The notes under the pieces are model-generated. The model was not told the origin of the DNA, did not search any database, and saw only the letters and a list, made by a program, of their open reading frames with translations. DNA of 64,000 nt from Nipponacmea schrenckii (Eukaryota; Mollusca; Gastropoda; Lottiidae), in the NCBI GenBank assembly GCA_030562195.1, contig JAUJPP010000003.1, positions 24,459,398 through 24,523,397 on the forward strand, read 5' to 3'. This document shows positions 19,801 to 22,800 of this stretch, piece after piece. Each line of letters opens with the position of its first letter. Position 1 is the first letter of the stretch. The position numbers were made by a program, and so were the translations under genes.

Positions 19801-22800
19801 AAAACCTTATCAATCGCTATCTCACTTCAATTATATTCCTCCTTTTCACAACACTCAGAAACTGATAAAAGGGAAAATGCAGATAGTTTAAAGAAAGCAA
19901 ATAAAAACTACTGACAATTTATCTACTGTTTTTCATGCAATTATGAATTAAACAAAAGGCAAAAGTGAATAACTATGTTAAAGAAAAATCAAAAAGAATT
20001 GAAGCAATCAATAATTCAATAGTCATATCAAGATTCTTATCAATGTGTTTAAGTTTTAAATAATTAGAAGTATTCAGTCTGTTAAACAGAAAGCATTGGT
20101 AACATATTGACTAGCTAGTAAAATATGCTGATTAATATATACTTGCAGATATGCAAAAGTAAAAGCATGCAAGGGTATGCTCTCGCTACATAATGGTGCT
20201 TTATGCAGTCTGATCTTAATTTATCAATAGCTTGTCTAATCAATAAGACACTAATTAAAGAAAAAATGTACTCAAATGAATGATAGGAGCTTGATAGTTT
20301 TAAACTTTTATATTGATACAATTGCATAATAAATATTTTATGAATATTCTGGCAACAAGCCCTGGTATTTGTAACAGTTATAAGTGTCTTACCATCTATT
20401 GTTTGTGGTGAGGATTGTAAGATCTGTTCAGGAGACATCTCACCACAATGATCTTGTATCTGTTTTAATTTTAACGATATACTGGCAAACGAAGGTCTAT
20501 TATGTGCATCAAAACTCCAACAGTTTTCCATTAAAGAGTAACTGAAAAACAAGATATATAAACACATTTCACTAAATAAAGGAGAATAAAGGAGATTCCA
20601 ACTGCAAAACTCAAATTTCATGTGTATATGAAAAAATCATGAACTTCAGTATGCATTTTTAAAGTCTAGAGAAAAAATCACAATTCTTAGTTTTTCCAAA
20701 GTTTTATTTTTTTTGAGCTTTACTATCTGTAATAGGTATTTTTATTTCACTGCCTTGCAAAGCTGTGAATTAGTTATATCATACAATTGGTCAATGTGTA
20801 ACAAGGAGAACTCATTAATATCCATCTTCGTTCTACTTTACTGCTAAACTCTTCTGTTAACAAAGCAACAAGGTTTCCAACTAAATCAAAGGTCACACTG
20901 ATTTTATATACTGATCTATTCACAACAGAATGAAAAACAAACTTACATTTCATCTGGACATTTATCTGGTTTGTCTAGTTTTCCACCAGATCGTACAAAC
21001 TGTAAAACTTCTACATTAGTTCTAGCTGGGTATGGCTGCTGCCCTAATGTTATCACTTCCCACATCAATACTCCGAAAGCCCTGAAATAAAACATGAGCC
21101 ATATGATGTCAAGTTAATTTCAGCTTTTGACTTTACATTTCAAATGGTACCATCTATTTAATATTCATTTAAAACCTAATTACTGATTATTCAATTGTTT
21201 AAGTTGTGATAATTCCTAAAGCTGATCCTATTAAAATATGTAACAATGTATTGAGTATGGGTTTAAATGTGCGTTTTGTACACACAATTATACGATATAT
21301 GATACCTGAGTTTTAATAAAGATCAACTCATTTCAACACTTCACCTTGTAATCATAATGTGAATTTTTAGATGATATACAGCAATATTATATTGAAAATG
21401 ATATTTGTTGTCCTAACAGACTATTGTTAGGCTTTCATTATATTTTAAAACAAGTGGGTGCCAAACAAGAAACGCCTACTTACAAAAAGCAATTTCCAGT
21501 CTTAGATCAATATTTTTTAAATTCTAACTAGTCCAAGATCTTGTGGATATAAATCTACACACCAAATTTCATAAATGCAGTCTAAAACTGCAACCTCTTT
21601 AGCATTCATAAGATGCTCAACAACAGAATTATATACTTGAATTAAAGTGTAGGTGTACAAACCAACAACTTACCAGATGTCAGAATGAGTTGTAAAAACT
21701 CCATCAACTAATGATTCTGGAGACATCCACCTTACTGGTAGTAATCCCTCCCCCTCCTTACGATAATAATCATTTTTATAGATATCACGAGCTAGTACCA
21801 AAAATCTCGCTATCTAATATACACACCAAATTTTCATAAATGCAGTTAAAACTGATAGCAATACAATTTAGCATAATCATAAGATAAGCTCAAAAAACAT
21901 AATTTTTATATACTTGAATTGAATTTTAGGTTGTAATTACGATTGTTTCATCTTGAAAATTACTATTGTAATAAGGTCTTAATTAATTAAACAATAAAAG
22001 GTTAGTAATTTGTTTATCTATCTTGAAAGAGTTACATTGTATATAAATCTTTAATTAATTTTAAACAATAAAAGGTTGTATATTGTTTATCTATCTGAAG
22101 AGTTCTTGTATATGGTTTTAATTAATTTTAACAATAAAAGGTTGTTATATTGTTTATCTATCTTGAAGATTTAATGTAATAAAGTCTTTATTAATTTAAC
22201 ATAAAGGTTGTATATTGTTTATCTATCTTGAAAGAGTACATTGTAATAAAGGTCTTTAATTAATTTAAACAAATAAAGGTTGTATATTGTTTATCTATCT
22301 TGAAAGAGTTACATTTAAAAAGGTCTTTAATTAATCTTGAAAAAAGGTTGTTATATTGTTTATCTATCTTGAAGGTTTAAATTTGTATATAAATCTTTAA
22401 TTTAATTTTAACAATAAAAGGTTGTTATATTGTTTATCTATCTTAAAAGGTTAGTAATGGTTTTAATTTTTTCAATAAAAGGTTGTATGTTGTTTATCTA
22501 TCTTGAAAGGATTGTAATGTTTTTAAATCTATTTTAAAAAAAAGGTTGTAATGTTGTTTATCTATCTTGAAAGAGTTATATTGTATATAAAGGTCTTTAA
22601 TTAATTTTAAACGAATAAAAGGTTGTGAAATTGTTTATATAAAACATACCTGTGAACAAAGTGCATTCCTTCTAAATATTCACAGCCACTAGCCACATTT
22701 ACACAAACTTTAACTAAATCTGGTAGATAAAGTCTGGGTGGACTGGACTAAAATATACAAACAATTACTTAATAATTTCATATTAAATGAAATGTATTTT

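Follow-up and report, generated by a model that had tools for sequence, protein, structure and literature searches.

A mis-assembled repeat patch very probably accounts for the missing catalytic-loop exon of a ROS1-like receptor tyrosine kinase gene in Nipponacmea schrenckii

The receptor pseudokinases HER3, PTK7 and ROR retain the catalytic-loop segment with substitutions, as known pseudokinases usually do, and the loss of the catalytic loop, β7-β8 and DFG together should wreck the C-lobe of a kinase. A ROS1/Sevenless-type receptor tyrosine kinase of the mollusc Nipponacmea schrenckii would, as assembled, resemble these receptors in being without catalytic residues but differs from them in that the entire segment, rather than a substituted version of it, is missing. 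Genome assemblies offer a second precedent. According to PMC5632298, bird assemblies based on Sanger and Illumina data are affected by false tandem duplications next to gaps, by gap edges of low quality and by the loss of exons, an early PacBio-based assembly contains indel errors, and all of these errors were judged against reads. The locus described below shares with these errors the coincidence of a tandem repeat, a duplication of neighbouring sequence and the absence of an exon at one place; it differs in that the Sanger and Illumina cases were checked with reads, whereas the ROS1-like case is known from the sequence alone. By analogy with those cases, the putative ROS1-like patch is of the same class of error.

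The window, the whole stretch of 64,000 nucleotides that was analysed, corresponds to positions 24459398-24523397 of contig C3 in a genome of 399.4 Mb assembled in 1093 contigs. Its minus strand carries the receptor tyrosine kinase gene, and all of the exons, the 69-bp array and the intron copies U and D described below are on this strand, with positions given in window coordinates. When the joined kinase exons were compared with the PDB, the top match was 9oyz (E 4.2e-95), named tyrosine-protein kinase receptor, and the three entries ranking after it were all named ROS. The exons also matched PF07714 in Pfam (E 2.9e-66), and many of the top protein matches (among 120 listed of 2320) have ROS-like names, so that the PDB, Pfam and protein matches identify ROS1 as the closest kinase domain. 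Among the best 120 of 2320 matches, the closest protein is LOTGIDRAFT_156686 of Lottia gigantea, with 91% identity over query region 1290-1593. The alignment to this protein places a large ectodomain and a transmembrane helix ahead of the kinase: exons of the ectodomain, the hydrophobic membrane-spanning segment, the kinase and the tail align in frame, as expected for ROS1/Sevenless, and those detected are free of frame breaks. The C-terminal tail exon (15960-16808) has 283 aligned residues with 95.8% identity and is open to its end. The exon alignment used minus-strand rows of more than 70% identity only, and residues 22-27, 1703-1821 and the missing 1855-1879 of LOTGIDRAFT_156686 lie outside it. 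Residues 1703-1821 fell under the cut because their alignment row crosses an intron, and residues 1704-1854 were compared through the joined exons instead. The Pfam domains listed for LOTGIDRAFT_156686 include PF00041, which we take to be FN3. Upstream of the first exon of LOTGIDRAFT_156686, minus-strand open reading frames at 52879-53247 and 58431-58754 resemble, by eye, further FN3 segments, which suggests that the L. gigantea gene model is without its N terminus. Other minus-strand open reading frames, at 3994-7202, resemble by eye the endonuclease and reverse transcriptase of a non-LTR retrotransposon.

The kinase exons on both sides of the defect are well preserved. The exon at 23331-23490, with the glycine loop (GSGAFGEV) and the VAVK lysine, aligns with ROS1 and is identical in its residues to LOTGIDRAFT_156686, as is the exon at 22977-23171, which extends from helix C (FLKEAVLMS) to the hinge (ELMEGGDLLSYL); the boundaries of both exons were checked. 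Exon A (22650-22747; 98 nt, 32 codons plus two bases) ends with EGMHFVHR in phase 2 at the donor CACAG|GTATGT and has one residue unlike LOTGIDRAFT_156686. It is separated by 836 bases from exon C (21813-21674), which begins in phase 0; the clean part of exon C (21674-21795; LARDIYKNDYYRKEGEGLLPVRWMSPESLVDGVFTTHSDIW) is identical to LOTGIDRAFT_156686 at 41/41 residues, and the next kinase exon (20947-21081), beginning with AFGVLMWEVITLGQQPYPARTN, is intact by the same comparison. In total, one of 151 residues before the gap and none of 85 after it differ (1/236). The coordinates and phases given in a preliminary description of this DNA, which had exon A stopping at MHFVHR in phase 2 and exon C starting at the DFG region in phase 0, are thus right, and its statement that the remaining kinase residues are intact on both sides agrees with the PDB and Pfam matches and with the L. 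gigantea comparison. It had also reported three extra single bases in the DFG codons. The start of exon C (21796-21813) requires three edits to fit a degenerate template of I-G-D-F-G plus CTAGCTCG, all of them extra bases by inspection; the IGDFG part alone requires two, a fit that was equalled by only 10 of 1500 random 51-nt windows, and because so few fit equally well, this stretch is probably the damaged true start of the exon. It could be regarded instead as the mere tail of a repeat, a reading that was not preferred because the end of the adjoining copy U is closer to the exon template (three edits over 23 nt) than to the tail of the repeat consensus (seven over 25 nt) or of copy D (10 over 27 nt).

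What the window lacks relative to LOTGIDRAFT_156686 is residues 1855-1879 (DLAARNCLVSSKNPSDMVVKIGDFG; n = 25), which are absent or damaged. The L. gigantea protein itself has both HRDLAARN and IGDFG, so that comparison with a related species, which had been proposed as a check, returned an intact protein. HxDxxxxN followed by DFGxxR is present in 119 of 120 homologs (the best 120 of 2320 matches), the exception being P0056; a narrower pattern that shuts out HRDLACRN scored just 61/120, and the wider one was used. Neither the HRDLAARN catalytic loop nor an undamaged DFG was found in the assembled window. From the phases of its neighbors, the expected exon B would be about 61 nt long (20 codons plus one base). 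When both strands of 20500-24000 were scanned without gaps, no codons resembling DLAARNCLV were found; the best score was 16/46, and scores of up to 25 occur by chance in the rest of the window. An indel-tolerant scan, in which the 836 bases were searched with a degenerate 60-nt template derived from the L. gigantea exon, found no trace of exon B there: 18 edits are needed on the gene strand and 16 on the opposite strand, and 17 or fewer suffice in 115 of 120 random windows of 836 nt. Both scans are at background, in agreement with the earlier observation that no DLAARN exon is present between exons A and C. Exon B was also not found elsewhere in the assembly in two protein searches, which a frame-shifted copy could escape. 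A 63-residue query gave 54 matches, comprising exon C, its twin and other places that are presumably other kinases. With the 25-residue query, six weak matches were obtained (best E 0.187), all of them away from the ROS1-like locus; the three best read HRDLAARNCMVSE.NVVKIG, unlike LOTGIDRAFT_156686, and a motif search did not identify the other three.

The intron between exons A and C is largely occupied by a 69-bp tandem array of 10 copies (21950-22638) with an excess of single-base indels, which we read as a probable unpolished patch. Its copies differ by 61 indel events, 48 of them single-base, and 24 substitutions. The controls were the nine remaining arrays of the window with a length of 120 nt or more and a period of 20 or more, with one TRF row used per array where several were given. 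Eight of them, pooled, have 31 indel events to 129 substitutions, and the ninth (37049-37735) is also indel-rich (26:19). Fisher tests, which count related repeat copies as independent, gave p 9e-16 for the array against the controls without 37049-37735 and 6e-12 with it; when the patch was read with a 275-bp unit, its ratio was 39:24 and the p values were 2e-9 and 2e-6, respectively. The difference profile of the patch is unlike that of nearby natural repeats, with one other array of the window, 37049-37735, being indel-rich as well. The latter is a 50-bp minisatellite of ~14 copies that is also rich in single-base indels (26 events to 19 substitutions). It covers the splice acceptor of the ROS1 exon 37073-36957 together with the first codons of that exon (IYSCPLYK), and because it adjoins an intact exon of the same gene, richness in indels does not by itself imply that an exon has been lost. 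Another array, at 2967-3889, has 27 copies of a 34-bp unit with 46 substitutions and one indel event and is a clean control.

The remainder of the patch, directly before exon C, is U (21816-21935), an insertion-rich second copy of the clean intron sequence D (21519-21658) that lies downstream of exon C, 277 bp away. In the intron part, U and D have 96 matches, nine substitutions and nine indel events, with 15 extra bases in U and one in D. The array and the U/D pair together bear out the earlier description of the gap filler as an indel-rich tandem repeat and an indel-rich copy of sequence from the far side of exon C. Beyond that description, a search of the same genome indicated that ~21612-21519 in D is part of a dispersed repeat, with 17 rows besides the locus and its twin; three of these are C3 twins, leaving 14 distinct loci. 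Matches to 21519-21612 occur on C3, C5, C7, C8, C9, C10 and C12, and at C10:5.186 Mb the repeat is in tandem at a spacing of ~160 bp. The 16 repeat copies compared with D, two each from two of the 14 loci, have 53 indel events to 268 substitutions: divergence in the family is led by substitutions, whereas U and D differ equally by indels and substitutions (9:9 versus 53:268, p 0.0016, in a test based on 18 differences). If the start of exon C is included, the U/D count becomes 14 indel events to 12 substitutions (p 4e-5); the intron-only count was preferred, and this stricter count leaves the odds of an artefact the same because the 69-bp array bears most of the weight. By inspection, U has features of D that are absent from most of the repeat family, and the U/D match begins upstream of the part of D recovered by the own-genome search; for these reasons U looks like a duplicate of D itself rather than a separate repeat insertion. 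D reads DLGLVR, and the idea that it is a decayed copy of the DFG exon was rejected: the clean part of exon C matches D no better than shuffled sequence does (an equally good match was reached by 263 and 193 of 1000 shuffles), and GATCTTGGAC is part of the consensus of the dispersed repeat.

A second copy of the locus was rejected as independent evidence. Contig C3 (59,252,672 bases) consists of two halves, offset by 29,626,336, that are identical at all places checked: at the junction, at either end, in one 2-kb segment of the interior and in a segment of 45 kb that includes the locus. At C3:54.1 Mb, exon A and 45,001 bases recur with 100% identity, and C3 matches pair at the same offset in the 63-residue protein search and in the repeat search. 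Since C3 is doubled exactly, the second copy tells nothing independent. The assembly is thus without an independent second allele, which is compatible with a repeat-mediated deletion of exon B on this haplotype, combined with sequencing noise, while the other allele is normal; D-like sequence on both sides of exon C, partly a dispersed repeat, could promote such a deletion. This explanation requires a deletion and an unpolished patch to have arisen separately at one place, and we consider it highly improbable.

A genuine deletion of exon B in the species or individual, which would make ROS1 a pseudokinase or a broken allele, is also very unlikely, although exon B was found neither in the patch nor in the two protein searches of the assembly. 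Splicing of exon A to the expected acceptor of exon C gives an immediate stop (HR-stop). Two other AGs keep the frame from exon A, with exon starts at 21805 and 21730, and the former, which yields HRFLVLARD, is a point in favor of genuine loss. Against it, the flanking kinase residues are nearly unchanged from L. gigantea, the three extra bases within ~20 nt beside an indel-rich patch are unlike ordinary divergence, and removal of the block should wreck the C-lobe, where pseudokinases usually keep the segment. We regard as extremely unlikely the more specific proposal that ROS1 has truly lost the catalytic loop, β7-β8 and DFG in one block and retains the rest of its kinase features, with in-frame splicing through a cryptic acceptor before 21805, as a candidate ligand-binding, non-catalytic scaffold.

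The missing exon B is very probably an assembly artefact, a mis-assembled repeat patch in the otherwise normal ROS1 gene of a limpet closely related to L. gigantea. The intact L. gigantea protein, the indel-rich patch, the near-complete conservation of the flanks and the stop at the junction support this reading, and confinement of the damage to the patch and one exon edge, next to flanks so little changed, suggests that low-quality sequence was put in at a gap. Counted against it is that the window contains no runs of N, and the D-like sequence next to exon C may reflect a genuine local duplication. The intact relative, the indel-rich patch, the U/D near-duplicate, the clean flanks and the failure to find exon B in the patch or in two protein searches of the assembly are observed directly; the sequencing and assembly process behind the patch is inferred. 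An ordinary exon B (~61 nt, DLAARNCLVSSKNPSDMVVK, phase 2 to phase 0) very probably separates exon A from exon C in the animal itself. Low-quality sequence would have been used to bridge the intron's A/T-rich tandem array, the patch would hold an erroneous or uncorrected second copy of the adjoining intron sequence and give way to clean sequence within the opening codons of exon C, and exon B would have been dropped. The preference of the preliminary description for a mis-assembled, unpolished patch over a pseudokinase is supported, on the strength of the nucleotide sequence and its comparisons. We judge the motif loss to be a probable artefact and the window copy to be a putative faulty assembly of a gene that we name ROS1-like.

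An unpolished repeat patch can mimic a pseudokinase even where contigs span tens of megabases. Automatic annotation of this sequence would be likely to label ROS1 as truncated or devoid of catalytic activity, and comparisons of kinomes would be misled by such a label. Should the loss prove genuine, the active site of a kinase would have been deleted as a block, which would be unusual.
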